Shown here: one piece after another, positions 203 through 12,311 of the stretch
Layout: every line of letters starts with the position of its first letter
How positions within the stretch are numbered: the first letter of the stretch is position 1
Source: an uncultured Acidimicrobiales bacterium
GTDB lineage: Bacteria; Actinomycetota; Acidimicrobiia; Acidimicrobiales; SZUA-35
Reading direction: 5' to 3'
NCBI GenBank assembly: GCA_937922785.1
Contig: CALAJQ010000019.1
Location: 1 to 64,000 of the forward strand
Length of the DNA stretch: 64,000 nucleotides
The notes under the pieces: generated by a model
Databases searched by the model: none
Told to the model about the DNA's origin: nothing
Seen by the model: only the letters and a program-made list of their open reading frames with translations
Translations under genes and position numbers: made by a program

Positions 203-1525
203 ATGTCTACGCGCCGCAAACTCACAGTCTCATGTTTTGCGTCGCTGGCGTTGATTATCAGCGCGTGTACTTCTCCCGAGAACTCAAACGAGATCGAAAC
301 CGTGGACGAGTCCACCACGACCTCCAGCCAGGAAGCTCCTACAACCACTGTGGCAGCGGCAACTGCCCAGCCCGATTCCTCAGCAGCAACAACCGCTGAC
401 ACCCCATCCAGCTCTGACACTGCGGCCCCGTCCAGCACCGAAGCACCCACTACCACTGGCCCTACAACTACTGCAGCCCCTACAACAACAGCGGCCCCAA
501 CTACCGCCGGCCCAACCACAACCAAGGCTCCACCTCCAGCCGGTGACGGCGGCGGCGACCCCAAGGTTGACCCCTTCTCTATCTACACCGGCATCCTTGG
601 ATTCTTTTCTCCAGACAAGCTGGTAACCCCAGCCATCGCCCCGGATCCGCCAACCGCATCCGGAACATTCCCGCTTACCGGCCTTGCCGGCTCAAGTCCC
701 AGCCGACCTGCCGTCGTCGTGAAGATCGACAACGGTTCAAAGGCCCTTCCCCAACACGGACTGAACGCAGCCGACATTGTTATTGAAGAAGAGGTTGAGT
801 GGGGCATCACCCGCCTGGCCGCAATCTTCCACTCGAACCAGTCAGAAGTTGGCCCGGTCCGCTCGGGCCGAAGCACTGACATCTCGTTCTTGAACTCACT
901 TGGCAAACCAGTACTTGCTTACTCGGGCGCCAACGACGTCATCGACGCATTGCTCCTCAACCAAAAGAGCGTGCAAAACTTCTCAGCCGCTCGCAGCAAC
1001 GCGTACTGGCGCCAAAGCGGTCGAAAGGCACCTTCAAACCTCTGGGCTAACACCGCAAGCTTCACAAAGGCCGCTTCAGGATCTGCACCGCCAGCTCAGT
1101 TCTACTTCCGAGCTGCCGGCGAACCCGCTCCGGTCGGCACCGCTACCACAAACATTTCAGTTCGCTATCCCTCTCGCAGCGTCGGCTGGACTTGGAACGG
1201 CAGCGCCTGGCTTCGGACTCAAGACGGCAAGGCCCACAACACCAATGGCGGGCAAGTAAGCGCCGCCAACGTAGTGGTCATCGAAGCTCGCGTTGTCGGA
1301 ACCGGATTGGTTGATTCTGCTGGTGGCATTGTGCCTGAGGTCGTCTGGCTTGGGAACGGCAACGCTGCTGTCTTCACCGACGGCAAGCGCATCAACGCAA
1401 CCTGGACTCGATCAACGTTGCGCTCAACCGCAACCCTCACCGATGCTGACGGCAACGTGATTGAGTTGACCCCAGGACGCACCTGGGTCGAACTCACTGC
1501 GCCAGGCAACTCATCATCTAGCTAG
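203..1525 (+). CDS. DUF3048 (YerB-like) lipoprotein
   Basis: Exported lipoprotein of 440 residues. A basic and hydrophobic signal peptide ends in a lipobox (LIISAC, Cys22). A Thr/Ala/Ser/Pro-rich linker covers roughly residues 35-115. The rest matches DUF3048, seen in the stretches VVVKIDNG, DIVIEEEVEWGITRLAAIFH and VGPVRSGR. The Bacillus member YerB has no settled enzymatic role; a cell-envelope function is likely. The ATG is preceded by an AGGGGG ribosome site. The gene lies upstream of dcd in the same direction with a 17-bp gap. Function beyond the domain name is not known. Confidence 0.85.
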   Translation: MSTRRKLTVSCFASLALIISACTSPENSNEIETVDESTTTSSQEAPTTTVAAATAQPDSSAATTADTPSSSDTAAPSSTEAPTTTGPTTTAAPTTTAAPTTAGPTTTKAPPPAGDGGGDPKVDPFSIYTGILGFFSPDKLVTPAIAPDPPTASGTFPLTGLAGSSPSRPAVVVKIDNGSKALPQHGLNAADIVIEEEVEWGITRLAAIFHSNQSEVGPVRSGRSTDISFLNSLGKPVLAYSGANDVIDALLLNQKSVQNFSAARSNAYWRQSGRKAPSNLWANTASFTKAASGSAPPAQFYFRAAGEPAPVGTATTNISVRYPSRSVGWTWNGSAWLRTQDGKAHNTNGGQVSAANVVVIEARVVGTGLVDSAGGIVPEVVWLGNGNAAVFTDGKRINATWTRSTLRSTATLTDADGNVIELTPGRTWVELTAPGNSSSS

Positions 1526-1542
1526 CCGATAGCCTCGCAGGT

Positions 1543-2109
1543 GTGATCCTCTCTGACCGCACCATTAAAGAAGAGATTGCTGCCGGGCGAATTATCATCG
1601 AGCCCTTCGATGAGTCCATGATCCAGCCATCTTCGGTTGATGTCCGCCTCGATACCGGGTTCCGGGTTTTTAGAAACCACACCCGCAGTCACATCGACGT
1701 AAAAGAGAACCTCGAAGATCTTGACGAACTGGTTGAGGCCACGCCCGACAAGCCGTTCATCATGCATCCACGGGAGTTCGTCCTTGGCTCAACCGCTGAA
1801 CGAATCGCGATCCCTTCAGACATGGTTGGTCGCATCGAAGGTAAAAGCAGCCTCGGTCGCCTCGGTCTGCTGATCCACACCACTGCTGGTTTCGTAGACG
1901 CCGGATGGGACGGCCAGCTGACTTTAGAATTCTCCAATGTTTCCAGCCTGCCAATCACCCTCTATCCCGGCATGAAGATTGGCCAGATCAGCTTCATCCG
2001 GATGACTACCGAAGCCGACAACCCATACGGCTCGGGTGAACTCGGCTCCAAGTATCAAGGTCAACGAGGCCCCCGTCCCAGTCGCTACTGGGAAAACTTC
2101 GACGCCTAA
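1543..2109 (+). CDS. dcd: dCTP deaminase
   Basis: Converts dCTP to dUTP, or directly to dUMP in bifunctional actinobacterial forms, supplying dUMP for thymidylate synthesis. The 188 residues match the family length. The conserved block GKSSLGRLGL (about 100-109) is followed by HTTAGFVDAGW (112-122) and the catalytic Glu in QLTLEF (Glu129). The start is GTG, with another GTG two bases upstream out of frame. Whether it also has dUTPase activity, as in Mycobacterium, cannot be decided by eye; a separate dut is encoded near 39 kb. Confidence 0.95.
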   Translation: MILSDRTIKEEIAAGRIIIEPFDESMIQPSSVDVRLDTGFRVFRNHTRSHIDVKENLEDLDELVEATPDKPFIMHPREFVLGSTAERIAIPSDMVGRIEGKSSLGRLGLLIHTTAGFVDAGWDGQLTLEFSNVSSLPITLYPGMKIGQISFIRMTTEADNPYGSGELGSKYQGQRGPRPSRYWENFDA

Positions 2110-2136
2110 CTTTCCTCTGGTAGTAGCTTCTACCGA

Positions 2137-3360
2137 ATGCGTCGCCCCAGCCCGATTCGGGCTTATCTCTGGTGGGGCGGTCTGTTCAGCGCAACCCTTG
2201 AAGGCTTCTGGGTGCTGGCGACCGTCTATGCCATTACTGAAGTGGGGCTCGACGCATTTCAGTTGGTGATGTTAGGCACCGCTCTGGAGGTCACTGTACT
2301 TGTCAGTGAGATACCTACCGGCGTGGTGGCCGATGCCTTAAGTCGGAAGTGGTCGGTTGTCATCTCGATGATGGTGATCGGGCTGGGCTTCATCTTGACC
2401 GGAACCTCCGACACTTTCTGGCCCATCTTGTTGGCCCAAATGGTTTGGGGACTTGGCTGGACGTTCACCTCCGGTGCCAACACTGCCTGGATAACTGATG
2501 AGCTGCTTTATGCCGGCGAGCCTCAAACCGTGGTCGACAAGACGGTTACTGCCGGAGCCAAAATCTGGCACGTCGGTGGAGTAGTTGGCCTGGTTACATT
2601 CGGCCTAATCGGCTACTTCGCCAGCCTCGCCACCGGCATAATTGTGGCCGGCATCCTCACCCTCGGAATCGGCGTTTGGGTCATCTGGGCGTGGGAGGAG
2701 CACGGCTTCACCAGGGTCGATGAGAAGCGTCTTGCCAACTCGGCGCGTGTGTTCAAAGGTGGCTGGAACCTGGCCCGAGCCGACCAGACAATCCTGACGG
2801 TCTTGGCAGTCACCGTCATGTTTAACTTCGGTGCCGAAGCTGTCGACCGGCTTACTGACAAACGACTGATCGACTTGGGAGTGCCACTCGAAGACGAGCC
2901 GATCGTGTTCATTATGGCGCTAGCCGCCGTCGGTTGGATACTGGGCGCAATTCTTCTTAACTGGGCCGAGAAACGAATCGAGAAACCGGGCGAAGGCCGC
3001 CGACTCTATATCTGGCTGTCGATTGTCGCGGCCCTAGGAACAGCGATAGTTGCAATGGCACCCAGCCTTGGCCCGGGCGTTGTCGGTTCGTTCTTGGTGC
3101 GCGGCCTCGCTTGGTCGGTGCTGCCAGTTGTTGCCGAAGTCTGGGTTAACCGGCAAGCCGAATCGGAATCTCGGGCCACAGTCCAGAGTTTCTTGGGCCA
3201 GGCTGAATCAATCGGAGAGATTCTCGGCGGCGTGGTCTTGGGTGCCATAGCTAGGCAGTTCGATGTTCCAGTTGCCCTATACGGATCGGCCCTACTCTTC
3301 GCCGCAGCGTCGGTCTTTATCTGGCGGTCAAAATCTGGCGTTAGCTTGGCCTCCGCATGA
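2137..3360 (+). CDS. Major facilitator superfamily transporter
   Basis: A 407-residue polytopic membrane protein with about 12 hydrophobic segments. The MFS loop 2-3 signature appears in degenerate form as GVVADALSRKWSVV (around residues 60-75), following an acidic residue in helix 2 (SEIPTG). The substrate cannot be told; the family moves drugs and small solutes by proton coupling. It overlaps the next transporter gene by 4 bp (ATGA), so the two are probably cotranscribed. No clear ribosome site precedes the ATG, and the start could be slightly misplaced. Confidence 0.85.
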   Translation: MRRPSPIRAYLWWGGLFSATLEGFWVLATVYAITEVGLDAFQLVMLGTALEVTVLVSEIPTGVVADALSRKWSVVISMMVIGLGFILTGTSDTFWPILLAQMVWGLGWTFTSGANTAWITDELLYAGEPQTVVDKTVTAGAKIWHVGGVVGLVTFGLIGYFASLATGIIVAGILTLGIGVWVIWAWEEHGFTRVDEKRLANSARVFKGGWNLARADQTILTVLAVTVMFNFGAEAVDRLTDKRLIDLGVPLEDEPIVFIMALAAVGWILGAILLNWAEKRIEKPGEGRRLYIWLSIVAALGTAIVAMAPSLGPGVVGSFLVRGLAWSVLPVVAEVWVNRQAESESRATVQSFLGQAESIGEILGGVVLGAIARQFDVPVALYGSALLFAAASVFIWRSKSGVSLASA

Positions 3361-4292
3361 CAGCATCAGCCAGCAACAAACCCGGCCGCAAGCCGATCTC
3401 AGTTCAGGCCGCCAACGACGGCAAGTTCGAGACAGGCGATTGGTTGTTGTTCCTGGCCATCTCGCTGGTCTGGGGTTCGTCATTCCTGCTGATCGCTATC
3501 GCTTTGGAGTCGATGGAACCGGGTGTCGTCACGTTCGGACGGGTCAGCCTCGGTGCGCTTGCATTGTTGGCGCTTGGCCCGTTGTCAAAGTCCCCGGGGC
3601 CGCGATGGCCCGAACGAACTGACTACCTGCAGGTCGCCGCCCTTTCGGCTCTTTGGGTTGGCATCCCGTTCACCCTGTTCCCATTGGCCCAGCAATACAT
3701 CAACTCGGCGCTAACCGGTTTGCTTAACGGAGCGACGCCCATCTACGTAGCCATTGCCGGCATGATCTTGGCTCGCGTCAGGCCCAAGGGGTTTCAACTG
3801 GCAGGCACCCTGGTGGGTTTTCTTGGCGTTGTCTGTATCAGCGCGCCAACGTTAACCACGGGCGGTTCCCAGGTTAGGGGCGTGCTTATGGTCCTGGCCG
3901 CAACTGCTTGTTATGGCGTTGCGATAAACGTCGCTTCACCTTTGCAGCGAAGGTACGGCTCGGTCTCACTTATGCGCTGGATGTTGATTGGCGCAACGAT
4001 ATGGACGTTGCCGTTCGGGCTTGTCCATCTCGGGGAATCCAAATTCGAATCCCGCACAATGGTCGCAGTCCTTGTACTGGGCGTAGTCGGAACTGGCCTG
4101 GCCTATCTAATGATGGCCACCCTCGTAGGACGGGTAGGTCCTACGAGAGCGTCCTTCATTACTTATTTCATACCGGTAGTCGCGCTAGTTCTTGGCGTCG
4201 TCTTTCGCAACGACTCTGTAGAGCCCTTGGCGATATTCGGCGTAGCACTCGTTGTCTCCGGAGCCTTGTTGGCTTCACGAAGTCAGAGCTAG
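3357..4292 (+). CDS. EamA/DMT-family transporter
   Basis: A 311-residue inner-membrane protein with about ten transmembrane segments arranged as two EamA repeats. The first repeat begins with LVWGSSFLLIAIALE, and the second follows VLAATACYGVAINVASPL. Drug/metabolite transporters of this type export amino acids or other metabolites; the substrate is unknown here. Its start codon overlaps the stop of the MFS gene (ATGA), pointing to translational coupling. Confidence 0.88.
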   Translation: MTASASNKPGRKPISVQAANDGKFETGDWLLFLAISLVWGSSFLLIAIALESMEPGVVTFGRVSLGALALLALGPLSKSPGPRWPERTDYLQVAALSALWVGIPFTLFPLAQQYINSALTGLLNGATPIYVAIAGMILARVRPKGFQLAGTLVGFLGVVCISAPTLTTGGSQVRGVLMVLAATACYGVAINVASPLQRRYGSVSLMRWMLIGATIWTLPFGLVHLGESKFESRTMVAVLVLGVVGTGLAYLMMATLVGRVGPTRASFITYFIPVVALVLGVVFRNDSVEPLAIFGVALVVSGALLASRSQS

Positions 4293-4321
4293 CAGATTTA
4301 GGTAGTCGCAGTAGTGGGGAG

Positions 4322-4549
4322 CTACTCGACTTTCTTCTTGCGACCCCGGGAACGGCGTCTAGCAGCATCGATTTTTCGAGCGGCCATAACGACGTCTTGT
4401 AATGTCATCAGAGTGGGGTTCTCTTTCAGACAAGGAGCCAGCGCTTCAATCATTGCACTCACACTTACACCATTATTGGCAGCGAAATCGTGCCAGGCGT
4501 CGTGAGCAACGTCAGAAACGTGAGCGTGTATTGCTGGTTTATTGGGCAT
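4322..4549 (-). CDS. Small ribbon-helix-helix-like DNA-binding protein
   Basis: A 75-residue protein. The first 40 residues (PAIHAHVSDVAHDAWHDFA then NNGVSVSAMIEAL) fit a ribbon-helix-helix fold: a short beta strand, a helix, a turn and a second helix. The C-terminus is very basic (RRRSRGRKKK), consistent with nucleic-acid binding. The ATG at 4549 was chosen over an in-frame start 12 codons upstream because an AAGGGA ribosome site precedes it. Two perfect palindromes lie just upstream, suggesting autoregulation. The identification comes from fold pattern alone; no named family was recognised. Confidence 0.6.
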   Translation of the reverse strand: MPNKPAIHAHVSDVAHDAWHDFAANNGVSVSAMIEALAPCLKENPTLMTLQDVVMAARKIDAARRRSRGRKKKVE

Positions 4550-4566
4550 GCGGCGATCCCTTTTGT

Positions 4567-4601
4567 TGTGTTGATTAAAACACACCCTAGTACTACTAGG
4601 G
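4567..4601. promoter_or_regulatory. Two adjacent palindromes, candidate operator
   Basis: TGTGTT-N6-AACACA (4567-4584) abuts CCCTAGTA-C-TACTAGGG (4585-4601). Both are perfect inverted repeats and begin 18 bp upstream of the small basic RHH-like gene on the minus strand. The position suggests a binding site for that protein. Confidence 0.5.
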
Positions 4602-4658
4602 CCGCCCGTGAACCCCTGAGCTGTTAAGAAATTGCAAAGTGTGGAAGCAGATAGCTTC

Positions 4659-6878
4659 CTAAGCCTGCTCGCCCGCCTCTATAGCTTCAAGTAGATGCAT
4701 CGCTATATCTGCAACACGCACCTCAGACTCGTCTTTTCCGTGACCCTTAACGCCATCATCCATCATGATGTAACAGAAGGGGCACGCAGTGGCCACGCGG
4801 CTTGCACCTGTCTCGATTAGCTCACGAGAGCGCTCAACGTTGATGTCAGTGCCGATGTCTTCTTCCATCCACATGCGAGCACCGCCAGCGCCACAGCACA
4901 TGCCTTGGGTGCCGTTGCGGCCAGCCTCAACGATCTGGATGCCCTTAATAGAGCCAATTACGTTACGAGGGCTGATGTAAACGTCGTTGTGGCGGCCGAG
5001 GTAGCAGCTGTCGTGATACACGATTCGCTCTTCAAGGCTGGCGTCAGCAACGTCAAGCTTGCCCTGATCAATCAACCACTCGAGGAACTGGCTGTGGTGC
5101 ACAACTTCATAGTTGCCGCCAAGTTGGGGGTACTCGTTCATCAGGGTGTTGAAGCAATGCGGGCACTGAGTGATGATTTTCTTAACACCCATACCGTTCA
5201 GGTTTGCGACGTTTTGCTTAGCCAGCATCTGGAACAAGTACTCGTTGCCAGCTCGCCGAGCCGGATCACCAGTGCAAAGCTCAGCTGGGCCGAGGATCGC
5301 TACGTCAACGTCGGCCCGGTTTAGCAGCTTGGCCATAGCCTGGGTGACCTTCTGGTTCTTGTCATCGAAGCTGCCAGCGCAGCCAACCCAGTAAAGGTAC
5401 TCATGGGTAAAGGGTTCGTTTTCGTCAACGATGTCAACCGGCAGGTCCTTGGCCCAGTCGGCCCGCGTTCCCTGGCTCATCGCCCACGGGTTTGAGCTGT
5501 TCTCCATTGAGCGGAAGGCCTGGCCAAGCTCTGATGGGAAGTCCGATTCCATAAGGGTCAGGGACCGACGCATGTCCAAGATCTTGTCGAGGATCTCGAT
5601 GTTTACAGGGCAGATTTCGTCACAAGCCTTGCAGCTGGTGCAGGCCCAAACTTCTTCCTGAGTAACTCGCTCGAATACAGACTCACTCTTGACGATGATC
5701 TCAGCATCCACGCCAATTGGAGGTGAAACCGCTGGGCTTCCGGTCCGGGCCATAACCTCGCCCGTCTTAAGAACGATTTCCCGAGGATCAAGCGGCTTGC
5801 CGGTGGCGTTGGCGGGGCAAACGGATGTGCAACGGCCACACATTGTGCAGGCGTCGGTGTCCATCAGTTGTTTCCAGGTGAAGCTTGAAATCTCGTTTGC
5901 GCCGAAGGTCTCAAGTTCTGTGCTGTCTAGGTCTGGCATGGCTCGCATGGCACCCTTTGGGCGATCTTTATCGCTTAAGTACATGTTCAACGGCGATGTG
6001 AACATGTGGCGCAGCATGGTTCCTGGAATGATGATCAGGAATGCGCAGAAGGTGACGATGTGGGCAATCCACCAGGCCTGATGCCATCCGGCCAAGTTCC
6101 CAAGTGGCTCAACCGCCAAGGAAAGCGGGTAGCCAACAACGCTCCAGCGCTCGAACTCAGGCTGGTCTTGTAGTGCGATTCGGAATGCTTCGGCGCCAAA
6201 GCCGGTGATGCCAATGGCGAACAAAGTGCCGTTGATCACCATGTGCTCAGGCCGACTCTTAACTGCAATGCGGTAGGGCCGCATGCTGCGGGGGCCATAA
6301 CGGCGCAAGATCGCCAAGGTCACTCCAGCTAGGAAGCCCAGCCCGGCCAGATCGCCGATCAAGGCGTAAGCCCGATAAACGTTGCCGTTTAGGAACTTGA
6401 TGCTTTCGGGAACCTGGTGGTTGATCTCCAGAACCGTTGTTACGCCCAACAGAATGATGAAGTTGAAGTAGATGAGGCTGTGCATGATGCCCGCGGCCGG
6501 GTCACGCATAAGGGTCTGCATGTAGACACCCGAGCGGAAGTCGGCCATGCGTTTCTTGAAGTTCTTTGGTGTTGTCTTGCGGCGGTCTGGAGCACCACGT
6601 TCCCAGTTCTTGACCCGGTAGCCCATCTGCACTGATGCCCACAGAATCAGAATCGGAACGATGGTGTAGAAGCCCAGACGGAAGGCTGATGGGATGTTCT
6701 CAAACACCTCTCGTTGCACTTCAGAGTCGTCGTGCCACTGAAGAACGGTCGCGGCGATGCCCGAAAGGACGGTTACACCGGCAATCAGCCCGCCAACACC
6801 CACCCAGAGGTGGCTCGCCTTAAGGCGGTTCGAGGAATCAGTGGTGGCGGCGAGTTCTTCGCTTACAGGAGCGTCCAT
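4659..6878 (-). CDS. etfD: Membrane (Fe-S) oxidoreductase, EtfD-like electron-transfer flavoprotein dehydrogenase
   Basis: A 739-residue fusion. The N-terminal third has five to six transmembrane helices of the nitrate-reductase-gamma type. It is followed by two [4Fe-4S] motifs, CTMCGRCTSVCP (about 344-355) and CTSCKACDEICP (about 413-424), and two CCG cysteine domains (CVGCAGSF; HDSC...CCGAGG). This architecture is that of mycobacterial Rv0338c/EtfD, which takes electrons from electron-transfer flavoprotein during fatty-acid oxidation and passes them to menaquinone. No etfAB or acyl-CoA dehydrogenase gene is adjacent. The ATG at 6878 was preferred to a TTG ten codons upstream; neither has a good ribosome site. 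Confidence 0.85.
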   Translation of the reverse strand: MDAPVSEELAATTDSSNRLKASHLWVGVGGLIAGVTVLSGIAATVLQWHDDSEVQREVFENIPSAFRLGFYTIVPILILWASVQMGYRVKNWERGAPDRRKTTPKNFKKRMADFRSGVYMQTLMRDPAAGIMHSLIYFNFIILLGVTTVLEINHQVPESIKFLNGNVYRAYALIGDLAGLGFLAGVTLAILRRYGPRSMRPYRIAVKSRPEHMVINGTLFAIGITGFGAEAFRIALQDQPEFERWSVVGYPLSLAVEPLGNLAGWHQAWWIAHIVTFCAFLIIIPGTMLRHMFTSPLNMYLSDKDRPKGAMRAMPDLDSTELETFGANEISSFTWKQLMDTDACTMCGRCTSVCPANATGKPLDPREIVLKTGEVMARTGSPAVSPPIGVDAEIIVKSESVFERVTQEEVWACTSCKACDEICPVNIEILDKILDMRRSLTLMESDFPSELGQAFRSMENSSNPWAMSQGTRADWAKDLPVDIVDENEPFTHEYLYWVGCAGSFDDKNQKVTQAMAKLLNRADVDVAILGPAELCTGDPARRAGNEYLFQMLAKQNVANLNGMGVKKIITQCPHCFNTLMNEYPQLGGNYEVVHHSQFLEWLIDQGKLDVADASLEERIVYHDSCYLGRHNDVYISPRNVIGSIKGIQIVEAGRNGTQGMCCGAGGARMWMEEDIGTDINVERSRELIETGASRVATACPFCYIMMDDGVKGHGKDESEVRVADIAMHLLEAIEAGEQA

Positions 6879-6980: not shown

Positions 6981-7319
6981 ATGCAGCTCGTAACGGCCAT
7001 CATCAAGCCCCACATGTTAGAAGAGGTCAAGGCTGGCCTTCAGAGTGTGGGTGTCACTGGAATGACAATCACTGAAGCCAAGGGATTTGGGCGCCAAGGC
7101 GGGCACACCGAGACCTACCGAGGCGCAGAGTACAGAGTCGATTTTGTGCCAAAAGTAAAGCTCGAGATTGTGGTTGAGACGGCTGATGTCTCCAAGGTGA
7201 CAGAGGCCATTACCGCCGCCGCCCAGACCGGCAAGATCGGCGACGGAAAAATCTGGGTAACCCCAGTAGAGAGCCTCATCCGGATCCGAACCGGCGACAT
7301 GGGCTCAGACGCCATCTAA
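6981..7319 (+). CDS. glnB: PII nitrogen regulatory protein
   Basis: Trimeric PII signal protein that senses ATP/ADP and 2-oxoglutarate. The 112 residues are typical. The T-loop [15 protein letters not shown] carries Tyr51, the residue uridylylated in proteobacteria and adenylylated in actinobacteria. The C-terminal signature [11 protein letters not shown] is intact. Unusually it is monocistronic: no amtB, glnD or glnA lies nearby, so glnB versus glnK cannot be decided from context. Confidence 0.93.
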
Positions 7320-7372: not shown

Positions 7373-8824
7373 CTAGGAAACTAGATTTACGGCCGAAGCT
7401 ATTGCGCCTATCGCCTCGGTCTCGCTGAGCGCGGCGTCCGGGTTCGACGCACCGCCAGCCACAACGAATTGGCGACCGTCGTTGCGCTCAAACCACCACG
7501 CACCGGCCAACACGCCCGGCTCGCTGCCGCCTTTGAACCGGATAGTCGGAAAGCGGTCCCGCTCAAAGCCGAGTCCTGATCCAGGGTTGATTTCCAGGAT
7601 TTCTGCGATTGGCTCCAGACCAGGCGTTTTCGCCAATTCGGCCAGGTGAACGTGAGTGCGGCAGAGGTCCTCGACGGTGGCGAACCATTCGATGTCGAGG
7701 TCACGGGGCTGATTAAAGGACAAACCATCGGCGTTAACCGTGTCGACCTCGCTCGGAGTAGACCAAGGCAGCCCGAAGGCATCCATCTCTTCCAGCAGGG
7801 CTCGTCGACCGTCAGTGTCGAGAGCTCGATAATCAGCCGCATTGGGCTCGGAGGCGGCGAACTTTAACTGGAACAGGTTGCCGGTCGACAGCATCGGGAG
7901 GTTCATCTCGGCCTCGCTGACACCTATTCGGACAAGTGCTGCTTCGACGTTTTCGCGGCCGACTCTGGCCAACAGATGGTCCGTCGCAGTGTTGTCAGAA
8001 ATAGAGATCATGGCCTCTGCGTACTCCTGAAGCGTTAGCTCATCGCCATCTTCAAGCATGAAGATCTGCCCGTCAGGGCTGCTGCGGAAGTTGCCCTGAA
8101 CAGCCAGCAATTCGTCCCAGGAGGCGGTGCCATCGGCTACCTGTTGGCCAAGTTCGGCAAGGATCCAGAGTTTGAAGACCGAGCCCAGTGGGATCGGGTT
8201 TTCGGCTCGAAGCTCCGCTACTGCGACGCAATCCCCATCGGTGACCTCATAGACCCCGAGGGCACTGGATGCCGCGGCTTCACCGAGGGCGACATCGATT
8301 TCAGCAAGAGTTTCGGCTTCGAGGTCCAGACCTCCACCCTCGCCTGGTGTTGCGAGCAGCCCGATTATTAGGTTCGGAGCAGCTGACTCAACCTGGATCT
8401 GAAGATTGAGTTTCACCCCATCAGCCCCGGTCAGCACGGCCGAACCCGACAGTCCGGTTGGGTCGGCCCCGTCGAACTCAGAAAGTACGTAGGGCCTTGA
8501 TGCCGGAGGGAAGATCTGCGGTGTGGATTGGATGAACACAGCAGCTGGCACTTGAGCAAGAAACGCGGGGGCGAAGCGCTTCTCTACCTCGTCCACAGTC
8601 AGATCGCTGTCACCGTTGATTACTGAGACTAGCCAAGCGAGTTGATCAGCCGCCGGTTGGCCGGTTGGAGCGTCGGTCGCGGCCGGAGCGTCAGTCGTGG
8701 TTGGAGCGATCGTGGTGGAGACGGGGGCGGCGGTTGTGTCAGAGGTGTCGGTCGCATCAGGGCTCGAGGTGCAGGCCGTGGCCACAAGTGCCATCGCAGT
8801 GATAGTTGTTAGGAATCTTCGCAT
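7373..8824 (-). CDS. Lipoprotein with class A beta-lactamase-like serine hydrolase domain
   Basis: A 483-residue exported lipoprotein with lipobox LVATAC (Cys18) and a Thr/Ala/Pro linker to about residue 57. Residues 58-160 form a small alpha/beta domain resembling the N-terminal domain of Streptomyces clavuligerus ORF12-type proteins. The serine hydrolase domain follows, with SVFK (Ser215, Lys218), SDN (276-278) and KGG (431-433) in place of KTG. No class A Glu166-type loop was identified, so antibiotic hydrolysis should not be assumed; esterase or peptidase activity is possible. The gene is divergent from a histidine kinase that shares the 58-160 domain. The ATG at 8824 was chosen because the signal peptide starts there. 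Confidence 0.82.
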   Translation of the reverse strand: MRRFLTTITAMALVATACTSSPDATDTSDTTAAPVSTTIAPTTTDAPAATDAPTGQPAADQLAWLVSVINGDSDLTVDEVEKRFAPAFLAQVPAAVFIQSTPQIFPPASRPYVLSEFDGADPTGLSGSAVLTGADGVKLNLQIQVESAAPNLIIGLLATPGEGGGLDLEAETLAEIDVALGEAAASSALGVYEVTDGDCVAVAELRAENPIPLGSVFKLWILAELGQQVADGTASWDELLAVQGNFRSSPDGQIFMLEDGDELTLQEYAEAMISISDNTATDHLLARVGRENVEAALVRIGVSEAEMNLPMLSTGNLFQLKFAASEPNAADYRALDTDGRRALLEEMDAFGLPWSTPSEVDTVNADGLSFNQPRDLDIEWFATVEDLCRTHVHLAELAKTPGLEPIAEILEINPGSGLGFERDRFPTIRFKGGSEPGVLAGAWWFERNDGRQFVVAGGASNPDAALSETEAIGAIASAVNLVS

Positions 8825-8933
8825 GTGACAATCGTAGATTTTCATCAACCGGCGATCATCGTGGACTCCACGGGACTTGATCTCCGTGCTGACACGGTTG
8901 GATGGTCTAGCCAAGCCTGAGAAGATGTTTGAG

Positions 8934-10775
8934 ATGTCAGAGCCGCCCTCACGCCCGATCCCGCGGGTCCGGTTCTTGGCAGCGGCCCTTCTGACGGGGC
9001 TCTTCTTGGCTTGGGCGATCTCTGCGAACGCCGATGTCACAAGACCAAACACTGATCCGTTCCAATCACTTGATGGTCTGCCAGACCCGACACAGTCTGG
9101 TATCGAGGAGCACCTTTCATGGGCTCTTGGCGTTATCGACGGCGAGCCGGTCGACGTCGCTGAGGTTGAGGACCGTTTCGCCCAATCGTTCTTGGATCAG
9201 ATCCCAGCAGATTCCTTCGCAACTGCGACTGCACCAGTGCTTGTCGGGGCGCCCTATGAATTCCTCGGTTTCGCTATTGCTGATGGTGGCATCTTTGCCG
9301 AGGTAGCGTTGCTGGACGCCGCCGGGGTCCCTTCTATTCTCACGCTGGCGGTGGACCCAACAACACCCGACAAGCTCGCCGCCTTGGTGATTGCACCCGT
9401 GGAGCCACCTTTGGGTCCGTTGGCCTTATGGGAATTCAGTCTGCACGTGGCTGCGGGATTGACTTTGCTAGCTACCGCAGCTGCATTGTGGTTCTCTGGT
9501 CGGGCCCGATCCAGTGCCGTGGTCGCCCTTGCCGGGGGTCTCTGGCTAGGTCAGTTGCTCGAACTGGCACAGGGTTCGATCCTGTACTCAGTCGGTCTGA
9601 TTGCAGGACCGGTAGCTGCCGGCGTACTAGCTCTTGCTGTGGTTTCGGGGCCCGATGGCCGGGTCGCTGGCCGACTCAACTGGCTGGCAGCAGGCTTCGT
9701 CAGTGCGGCCGTTTTCAGTTCGCTGTTGGTGTTGACCGCGGTGGACACGTCAGTCTTGACCTTGCCTGATCAATTTCTTGGCTTTGCTCCCGATCGCTCC
9801 AGAGCAAACGCCTTTGCGCGTGCCTCAGGATGGGTTGTGTCTGCAGCTGCTGCGACGGTAGCGGTGGCGGTCCTGGTGAGGCAGTTCCGCGCTGATTGGA
9901 CGCGTGATCGAGGGCTGGTGGCGGCCACTCTTGGCGGCACCAGCGCCGCGGTTTTGGTTGCGATTCCGGCTGTGTCAGCCGGGTATGACCCTGGCGCTTT
10001 TGACTTCTCACAGTCTTCTCTGTTCTCCATTGCGGCGATTGTCGCTGGGTTGGGACTGGCCGGTTCGGCGCTTTGGGATCGCTATGACCTGGGGGAGGTT
10101 GCTGAAGAACTGGCAGCAGAAAACCAGGAGCTACACGGCGAACTGGCGGCTCAGCTTCTTGAGGTGCAGGCTTCCCGGGCTCGCATTGTCACCGCAGGCG
10201 AAGCGGCCCGTCGCCAGATCGAGCGTGACTTACATGACGGTGCCCAACAGCGGTTGCTGGCAGTAGTCCTGGCTCTAAGAGTGGGCCGGGATCGTTTCGC
10301 CAAAGAAGATCCAGAACTCAAGTCCTACTTCGACAGCGTGGCTGATGACCTTGGAATTGCAGTCGCCGAACTTAGAGAGCTGGCCAGGGGATTACATCCC
10401 GCCATTCTCGACGAAGGTATAGCCGCAGCCGCTGAGTCGCTGGCCGAGTCATCGTCGATTCCAGTAACTGTCACGGCGTCAAAGGTTGATCGATGCGCCA
10501 TTGGCGTGGAACAGACTGCCTACTTTGTGATTAGTGAAGCACTCACCAACGCAGTTAGACATTCGAATGCAAGCCACATTGCGGTCGATCTTGAGACCGC
10601 TCGCAATTCTCTTTCGATTGTGATCTCCGATGACGGCTCGGGCGGCGCCGCCCTGCGAGATGGGTCCGGCCTTCAAGGCTTAGAAGACCGGACATTGGCT
10701 TTGGGTGGCACCTGGTCGCTGTCGAGCCCGCCCGGCAAGGGCACAGCGATCAAGGTGACGATTCCATGCGAATAA
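8934..10775 (+). CDS. NarL-class sensor histidine kinase with exported sensor domain
   Basis: Membrane sensor kinase of about 613 residues. A signal-anchor helix (about 13-32) precedes an extracytoplasmic region (about 55-155) with the same pattern as residues 58-160 of the divergent lipoprotein (HLSWALGVIDG and EVEDRFAQSFLDQIPA). Six or so further transmembrane helices follow. The cytoplasmic part has a HisKA_3 domain (ERDLHDGAQQRL, His434) and a HATPase (NAVRHSNASH; DDGSGG; GSGLQGLEDR). The ATG at 8934 has a GAGAAG ribosome site nine bases upstream; an ATG at 8925 is possible. It overlaps the response regulator gene by 10 bp. Confidence 0.88.
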   Translation: MSEPPSRPIPRVRFLAAALLTGLFLAWAISANADVTRPNTDPFQSLDGLPDPTQSGIEEHLSWALGVIDGEPVDVAEVEDRFAQSFLDQIPADSFATATAPVLVGAPYEFLGFAIADGGIFAEVALLDAAGVPSILTLAVDPTTPDKLAALVIAPVEPPLGPLALWEFSLHVAAGLTLLATAAALWFSGRARSSAVVALAGGLWLGQLLELAQGSILYSVGLIAGPVAAGVLALAVVSGPDGRVAGRLNWLAAGFVSAAVFSSLLVLTAVDTSVLTLPDQFLGFAPDRSRANAFARASGWVVSAAAATVAVAVLVRQFRADWTRDRGLVAATLGGTSAAVLVAIPAVSAGYDPGAFDFSQSSLFSIAAIVAGLGLAGSALWDRYDLGEVAEELAAENQELHGELAAQLLEVQASRARIVTAGEAARRQIERDLHDGAQQRLLAVVLALRVGRDRFAKEDPELKSYFDSVADDLGIAVAELRELARGLHPAILDEGIAAAAESLAESSSIPVTVTASKVDRCAIGVEQTAYFVISEALTNAVRHSNASHIAVDLETARNSLSIVISDDGSGGAALRDGSGLQGLEDRTLALGGTWSLSSPPGKGTAIKVTIPCE

Positions 10776-11419
10776 TCGTTGTCGATGATTCGGTGTTGCT
10801 ACGTGAGGGCATCGCCAGCCTGCTGGAGCGGGCCGGACATGACGTTGTCGCCCAACTTGGAGACGCTACCGATTTGGCCTCAGTAGTTGATCAACACGAG
10901 CCTGAGCTAGTGGTGCTGGATATCCGCATGCCGCCGACTCATACAACGGAGGGTCTTGAGGCCGCCGTTGCCTTGAGAGCGTCGCGGTCTGACGTCGCGG
11001 TGATGTTGTTAAGCCAGCACATCGAAACCCGCTACGCCTTGGATCTGATTGCCGATGGTGCGTCGGGTGTTGGGTACCTTCTGAAGGACAGGGTGGCCGA
11101 CGTCGAGGACTTCCTTGGCTCGTTGGATCGAGTGGCGGCCGGGGACACGGCGATTGACCCCCAAGTTGTGACCAAACTCGTCGGGAGGGAAAGGCGAAAC
11201 AATCCGCTGGATCGTCTTACTGACAGGGAGCGGGAGGTGTTGTCGTTAATGGCCGAAGGTCACTCGAACGGATCACTTGCCGAGACTTTGGTGCTAAATC
11301 AGCGGACAATCGAGACCCATGTGAGCAACATCTTTTCAAAGCTCGACCTTCCGCCGGAGCTAGAGGTTCATCGACGAGTCCAGGCCGTGCTCACTTACCT
11401 CACGAACGTTGCTTCCTAG
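10766..11419 (+). CDS. NarL/LuxR-family response regulator
   Basis: A 217-residue partner of the upstream kinase. The receiver domain has the acidic pair Asp7/Asp8, phosphoacceptor Asp52 (VVLDIRMPP) and Lys107 (LLKDR). The C-terminal LuxR-type helix-turn-helix spans about 150-195 (LTDREREVLSLMAEG; RTIETHVSNIFSKL). The 10-bp overlap implies coupled translation. A likely target is the divergent promoter region at 8825-8933 (inference from position). It ends 4 bp into the convergent peptidase-like gene. Confidence 0.93.
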   Translation: MRIIVVDDSVLLREGIASLLERAGHDVVAQLGDATDLASVVDQHEPELVVLDIRMPPTHTTEGLEAAVALRASRSDVAVMLLSQHIETRYALDLIADGASGVGYLLKDRVADVEDFLGSLDRVAAGDTAIDPQVVTKLVGRERRNNPLDRLTDREREVLSLMAEGHSNGSLAETLVLNQRTIETHVSNIFSKLDLPPELEVHRRVQAVLTYLTNVAS

Positions 11420-12186
11420 TTATTGGCAAGAGTTGCTATCAGCTCTAGCTGCTCGCTGTTTGGGGCCGGTCCTAGCTTTGACCGGTAGGACCCCGTGCCA
11501 ACCTGCCACGCAGCAAATCCCTCGGCGAAGTCGCCGGCACCGCTGTGAAAGTCGCTAACGCCGCCGGGGGCGGGCCACCAGTCGGCATCAGGAAAACCGC
11601 GCAGCTCCAACCAAGCCCGCCTCTCGGCACCGTTGTTAAGCGTTACGTCCACGGCGTGGCCAAGCTCATGGGCGATCACGTGGGCGAGAAGCTTCTCCGT
11701 CATCGAGTCCCGAACGTAGACCTCGATGCGCTTTTCGTTGGTATAGGTGTATCCAAGCACGCCCGAGCGTGATGGTTTGAATTCAATCGTCCAGCCCGGC
11801 AATGCGGTCCGCCATGGGTATGAGATCTGAGCCAGAGCGGCTTCGCCACGTTGCTCATGATCCAATTTCAGCGTGGTTCCGGGCGCTGGCTCGTTAGTAG
11901 TTGGGGTCGACGTCGGGGGAGGGCCTGTGGTAGTTGCGCCCGGTTCCAGCGGAGCCGAAGTAACTGCGGGAGCGTCAGTTGAGCTTGAGTTCGAGGCCGT
12001 TTTCGCGGTGCTAGATGTTGTGGTGACCTTTGGTGCAGTGGTCGAAGTGGTTGCCGCTACCGCCAGAGGCTGCACCGAAGTGCCTTCGGAGTTACTAGGA
12101 GCAAATACGTCGAGTTGACCAATGACCACAAGCGGGATCGCCAGAACACCCGCCGAAATCGCTAGTCGAAAGCCCAATACCCGCAT
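11416..12186 (-). CDS. Exported HExxH metallopeptidase-like protein
   Basis: About 256 residues with an N-terminal signal or anchor helix, a Thr/Ser/Ala-rich linker (about 35-105) and a compact domain containing HVIAHELGHAVDV, a HExxH zinc motif at about 173-177. A Glu in DFAEGFAAW may be the third metal ligand. This pattern fits gluzincin-like peptidases or wall-lytic accessory proteins; no named family was recognised. The ATG at 12186 was chosen, though a TTG seven codons upstream is in frame. The 3' end overlaps the response regulator gene by 4 bp, convergently. Confidence 0.7.
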   Translation of the reverse strand: MRVLGFRLAISAGVLAIPLVVIGQLDVFAPSNSEGTSVQPLAVAATTSTTAPKVTTTSSTAKTASNSSSTDAPAVTSAPLEPGATTTGPPPTSTPTTNEPAPGTTLKLDHEQRGEAALAQISYPWRTALPGWTIEFKPSRSGVLGYTYTNEKRIEVYVRDSMTEKLLAHVIAHELGHAVDVTLNNGAERRAWLELRGFPDADWWPAPGGVSDFHSGAGDFAEGFAAWQVGTGSYRSKLGPAPNSEQLELIATLANN

Positions 12187-12311
12187 CGGCACCAACTTAA
12201 GTAACAAATGACCGCTGGGCCAAGGGTGATCTTCCTATAAAGCCCTCCTTTAGTGGGCCTATCGGCTCCCTAAGAGGATCGGCAGGGTGCCTTGACATAA
12301 GTCACAAGAGA

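Follow-up and report, generated by a model that had tools for sequence, protein, structure and literature searches.

In bla systems the genes for the sensor and the enzyme are encoded in opposite directions, an arrangement also found at the locus described here, which lies in a window of 64,000 nucleotides (the whole stretch of DNA that was analysed). In BlaR1/BlaI-BlaZ and MecR1 induction (PMC9834060, PMC3356374), the outside domain of the membrane sensor is homologous to a part of the adjoining enzyme, and the same relation holds in the window. However, BlaR1 shares the catalytic (acylatable) domain of its enzyme and signals via a metalloprotease, whereas the two window proteins share a non-catalytic accessory domain and the output consists of a histidine kinase and a response regulator. 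The Pfam matches of the window kinase include neither a penicillin-binding sensor domain nor a metalloprotease, which places it outside the BlaR1 type.

The enzyme of the window resembles ORF12/Cpe and the LpqF-type lipoproteins, for which we know of no established role. In these proteins, as in the window hydrolase, an ORF_12_N domain precedes a class A beta-lactamase-like domain, and the SxxK, SDN and KxGS motifs are kept. The N-terminal domain of Cpe/ORF12, which has no known function, packs on the catalytic domain, contributes to the wall of the ligand pocket and is required in vivo (PMC6478378). LpqF of Mycobacterium abscessus binds carbapenems and is a poor beta-lactamase (PMC13162264). 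The domain family itself (Pfam PF18042, ORF_12_N) was mentioned in no paper found by our literature search.

An accessory domain common to a lipoprotein hydrolase and a divergent sensor kinase

The coordinates given in the first-pass annotation, the 109-bp divergence of hydrolase and kinase and the position of a regulator gene after the kinase gene all agree with the open reading frames (Table 1). The start of the response regulator gene overlaps the stop of the kinase gene in a different reading frame (10766 versus 10775). Convergent neighbours flank the module on both sides, a P-II gene at 6981-7319 and an ORF at 11416-12207, leaving the hydrolase as the only neighbouring target.

Table 1. 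Features of the hydrolase-kinase locus, with positions in the window
Feature	Position	Strand	Description	Basis
Lipoprotein hydrolase gene	7373-8824	-	483 aa, ATG at 8824	ORF call; Pfam PF18042 and PF13354; PDB ORF12, 1e-32; motifs
Hydrolase ORF_12_N domain	8384..8659	-	Residues 56-147	PF18042, 1.4e-13; genome search, 5.6e-14
Divergent intergenic region	8825-8933	.	109 bp between the two starts	ORF starts
NarL-type sensor histidine kinase gene	8934-10775	+	613 aa, ATG at 8934	Pfam; hydropathy; NarL-type family matches
Kinase ORF_12_N domain	9093..9356	+	Residues 54-141	PF18042, 2.5e-10; genome search, 1.0e-10; hydrolase-only profile, 1.3e-18
Response regulator gene	10766-11419	+	217 aa, receiver and LuxR/GerE helix-turn-helix	PF00072, 1.1e-16; PF00196, 6.1e-14

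It had been claimed that the hydrolase and the kinase show the same pattern over about 100 residues, and this was borne out by every comparison that we made. BLASTP aligned the two regions with 45 bits and E 3e-9 (36 of 102 residues identical, 35%), and their Smith-Waterman score of 114 compares with a maximum of 73 among 5000 shuffles. Both copies pass the Pfam gathering score of ORF_12_N (26.7 bits), the hydrolase copy with 51.5 bits and the kinase copy with 41.1 bits. We also built a profile from the hydrolases of other genomes only, to which no kinase contributed, nor the window hydrolase or the two relatives nearest to it. This profile found the window kinase at E 1.3e-18, compared to 0.38 for the best shuffled decoy, and gave no match to unrelated NarL-type kinases at E up to 1. 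The 4.9-Mb genome of the window holds just two convincing ORF_12_N copies, and these lie in adjacent genes; in a genome of roughly 4,700 genes, a randomly chosen pair would by our estimate be adjacent with a probability of about 4e-4. In profile comparison, the only confident match of the family was to the N-terminal domain of ORF12. On this sequence evidence, the regions of about 100 residues in the hydrolase and the kinase are homologous and do not represent a chance pattern. The probability that the similarity is due to chance or to an annotation artefact is negligible given the agreement of independent tests (BLASTP and shuffles, Pfam, genome search, hydrolase-only profile and the ORF12 profile match), and the match of the hydrolase-only profile to the kinase refutes it.

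Structural models of these proteins are weak; the claim of homology is carried by the sequence comparisons. An AlphaFold2 model of the kinase domain, made from the two window sequences, consists of helices followed by four strands, the order expected of the domain, and has a pLDDT of only 57. With this low-confidence model the first six Foldseek matches were all ORF12 chains (best E 1e-3, low TM-scores), after which came NTF2-like proteins and ketosteroid isomerases, while VIA-align returned no strong match, ORF12 being absent from its 50 best. Prediction of the full-length hydrolase without an alignment reached a pLDDT of 35.

By its sequence, the window hydrolase belongs to the Cpe/ORF12-type (LpqF-like) serine hydrolases and is an exported lipoprotein, unlike Cpe, which is cytoplasmic (PMC6478378). 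Its nearest solved structure is ORF12/Cpe (PDB 2xep), with E 1e-32 across residues 30-456, in keeping with the earlier suggestion that the shared domain resembles the N-terminal domain of ORF12. Residues S215, K218, S276, K431 and S434 align with Ser173, Lys176, Ser234, Lys375 and Ser378 of ORF12, the catalytic residues whose roles have been described (PMC6478378). The NCBIfam equivalog cut-off for true class A beta-lactamases was missed (39.5 bits versus 200). In contrast to Cpe of the clavulanic acid cluster, the hydrolase lacks the clavulanate contacts His88, Lys89 and Trp91, which are replaced in both window domains as judged by the family alignment to ORF12; thus no ligand can be transferred from ORF12, and clavulanate is not implied. 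No biosynthetic cluster was seen beside the window hydrolase.

The kinase has a hydrophobic segment at about residues 11-33, then ORF_12_N, about seven spans between residues 168 and 382 (Pfam, hydropathy) and a core made up of HisKA_3 with a DLHDGAQQR motif (426-490) and HATPase_c (525-612). This layout predicts an extracytoplasmic ORF_12_N and a cytoplasmic kinase core. With HisKA_3, HATPase_c and an adjoining regulator with receiver and GerE domains, the pair belongs by Pfam to the NarL type; it shares these domains and the overlapping genes with MctS/R, UhpB, LiaS and relatives of MadR, but every score against the equivalogs of these systems falls under the cut-off, including that of the NCBIfam family closest to the response regulator (MadR, 3.9e-34). 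An outside domain, about seven spans and a cytoplasmic kinase are also found in the 7TMR-DISM receptors, a resemblance of layout only: the 7TMR-DISM Pfam models gave no match to the kinase at E up to 10.

Distribution, gene neighbourhoods and ancestry

Our searches for the domain took in 61 relatives, 396 genomes of the phylum, 397 of the order and 395 of the class, the class being covered two times, each time with another profile. The families to which the kinase-bearing genomes belong were also included, and many genomes came up in more than one search. ORF_12_N was found in about 40 places, nearly all of them fusions to beta-lactamase-fold hydrolases, in which the partner is mostly PF13354 and in a few cases PF00144. 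In the class C-like PF00144 fusions the ORF_12_N-like domain is found at either end, C-terminal in L014 (151-1815) and L177 (1-1734) and N-terminal in L012 (1249-2598), and one hydrolase (L172 1066-3060, genome G852) has two tandem ORF_12_N domains before its beta-lactamase-like domain.

Kinases with ORF_12_N are rare, and four were found: that of the window and those of genomes G059, G364 and G370, which appear to be Acidimicrobiia-like, judging by the nearest named relative (L046, Ilumatobacteraceae). The latter three lie under the Pfam cut-off (15-17 bits) and are found by the hydrolase-only profile at 2e-10, 3e-6 and 1e-8, respectively; by hydropathy they too have one segment followed by seven spans. 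A scan of genome contigs with the whole kinase, which provides a negative control, returned kinase-core relatives only: both ORF_12_N and an adjoining ORF12-type hydrolase were absent from all of the 80 loci whose kinase cores are most similar. Viral contigs, scanned with the profile of the kinase domain, yielded no relative. L046, which has the closest kinase core, may itself carry the domain, its N-terminus being cut by the contig end; an ORF_12_N hydrolase is encoded on a separate contig of the same genome (G1042).

Conservation of the pair, proposed in the first-pass annotation as a check on its reading, held in part. On the one hand, the kinase was absent from all 38 other genomes of the window's family in which it was sought, and the closest orthologues of the hydrolase (52-56% identity in G009 and G027, 47% in G998) have an ECF sigma factor gene immediately after them (L111, L110 and L167 being the loci concerned, at 2653-5362, 3315-5961 and 1162-3266). 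On the other hand, the G059 kinase, in a family other than that of the window, is divergent from a secreted PF00144 lipoprotein hydrolase that itself has no ORF_12_N domain and keeps the beta-lactamase fold. In a third family, furthermore, three genomes of two genera carry histidine kinase, response regulator and hydrolase as an operon of overlapping or nearly overlapping genes on the same strand (L109 2454-5777 in G318, L108 5221-8558 in G093, L156 5832-9164 in G389); the kinase, Pfam-scanned in G318, is without ORF_12_N and has a DUF7134-type membrane part. Members of the hydrolase family thus stand next to different types of regulator, as would fit an envelope enzyme that is inducible, although few independent events are involved.

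The kinases of G364 and G370 have no adjoining hydrolase. In both genomes, which belong to two families, the kinase gene is divergent from two genes for CPBP/Rce1-like membrane proteases upstream on the minus strand (L106, L107), a conserved arrangement. An ORF_12_N hydrolase is encoded on a different contig in G364, and none was found in G370, a genome that is 77% complete. Two further neighbourhoods contain additional genes: in G027 and G009 the hydrolase and ECF sigma genes precede that of a membrane protein without family assignment, which may regulate the sigma factor, and in G059 (L105 3607-5820) the gene after that of the PF00144 lipoprotein, in the same orientation, encodes an ABC transporter ATPase and may belong to one operon with it.

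A tree of the domains places the window kinase, with weak support, next to the lineage of its own hydrolase (86/46) and unites the other three kinases (82/98). In the tree of kinase cores the partner of the window kinase is L046 (95/76), and here too it does not join the other three. Similarity of the membrane regions is at the edge of noise (E 0.04). Since the window kinase is separate from the other three in both of the best trees, the ORF_12_N kinase may have been assembled more than once; however, a single origin of all four is not rejected (p 0.38 for the domain tree, p 0.30 for the core tree). Its domain was possibly captured from the neighbouring hydrolase gene.

Possible roles of the receptor domain

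The first-pass annotation read the locus as a signalling circuit, a reading that finds partial support in gene order and domain sharing. We consider it quite possible, if somewhat short of probable, that the locus is an induction module in which the kinase senses the ligand of the hydrolase and the regulator raises hydrolase expression. The kinase would then be a receptor with an outside ORF_12_N domain (probably NTF2/SnoaL-like) mounted on about seven spans and a NarL-type core. In ORF12-type hydrolases this domain packs against the catalytic domain and helps to form the ligand pocket; the kinase would reuse such a domain to bind a small molecule, derived from the envelope or resembling a beta-lactam, in whose binding by the hydrolase the enzyme's own copy takes part. 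The kinase would then phosphorylate its LuxR-type regulator, which would act in the 109-bp divergent region and raise the expression of the hydrolase and of itself. A ligand common to both proteins, the kind of molecule it is, the sign of the regulation and the operator are all inferred from gene order and domain sharing.

Induction by a shared ligand is favoured by the homology of the two domains (BLASTP, Pfam and the hydrolase-only profile), by the adjacency of the only two convincing copies in the genome, by the near-restriction of the domain elsewhere to fusions with beta-lactamase-fold hydrolases, whether PF13354 or, at either end, PF00144, and by the convergent flanks that leave the hydrolase as the sole adjoining target. 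The divergent PF00144 lipoprotein of G059 and the recurrence of regulators near the hydrolase family (histidine kinase and response regulator in G093, G318 and G389, ECF sigma factor in G009, G027 and G998) point the same way, as do the pocket-lining residues and in vivo requirement of the ORF12 N-terminal domain (PMC6478378) and the binding of carbapenems by M. abscessus LpqF (PMC13162264). Against it stand the absence of the kinase from relatives of the window's family, where the closest hydrolase orthologues have another regulator, the location of two of the four kinases (G364, G370) beside Rce1/CPBP-like proteases instead of hydrolases, and the replacement of His88, Lys89 and Trp91 in both window domains. 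The intergenic region is similarly unhelpful to this reading, as a search of 8825-8933 for a conserved operator or promoter yielded nothing above chance. No sigma-70-like promoter was found there either, and the one perfect palindrome, CGTGGA-C-TCCACG at 8860-8872, is a candidate site only, being expected by chance about once per three regions of this size by our estimate.

The same facts about distribution can be read as shared ancestry without shared function. NarL-type kinases would have taken up an NTF2-like scaffold as a sensor, perhaps from a neighbouring hydrolase gene; the kinase domain would now bind something else, and the regulator would control genes elsewhere or only itself. The pairwise identity of just 33-36% between the window's two domains is consistent with such a history, as are the two kinases located away from hydrolases, the absence of the pair from family relatives and the domain tree, with its weak placement of the window kinase by its own hydrolase lineage and apart from the other three. 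However, capture of a random scaffold predicts neither a domain nearly confined to beta-lactamase-fold hydrolases nor a hydrolase of that fold as the divergent neighbour at two of the four kinase loci, and we regard this explanation as rather unlikely.

Lipoprotein partners of other kinases provide a precedent for a lipoprotein setting kinase activity. Here the kinase ORF_12_N might contact the hydrolase lipoprotein itself, either by pairing with its homologous domain or by docking on the catalytic domain at the usual seat of that domain, so that the empty or occupied state of the hydrolase would set kinase activity in a feedback. The membrane-anchored lipoprotein and the receptor domain face one compartment, the N-terminal domain of ORF12 does pack against its catalytic domain (PMC6478378), and the G059 hydrolase, which is without the domain, still offers a beta-lactamase fold for docking. 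However, G370 has the kinase with no ORF_12_N hydrolase found in its incomplete genome, and we judge contact of this kind unlikely.

If induction by a shared ligand does apply, ORF_12_N, seven spans and a kinase core could together define a new class of actinobacterial envelope receptor, which would use a copy of the accessory domain of a beta-lactamase-fold hydrolase to sense what that enzyme converts or releases, its substrate or product, and would induce the enzyme. The logic would be BlaR-like but would run over another shared domain and a histidine kinase; as a class, this remains a doubtful proposal. A receptor that has retained ORF_12_N as its only part of the hydrolase would suggest that the domain can act alone, probably as a binding module. 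The soluble sensor domain of 100 residues and a divergent gene that could serve as reporter offer a handle for finding the ORF_12_N ligand, and were this a beta-lactam or a cell-wall fragment, the locus would represent a route of beta-lactam or wall-damage sensing unlike that of BlaR1.

Outside the module, the ORF at 11416-12207 (minus strand), which is convergent with the response regulator gene, matched no family above cut-off in a Pfam scan and encodes an exported protein with a zincin-like motif, HVIAHELGHAVDV.
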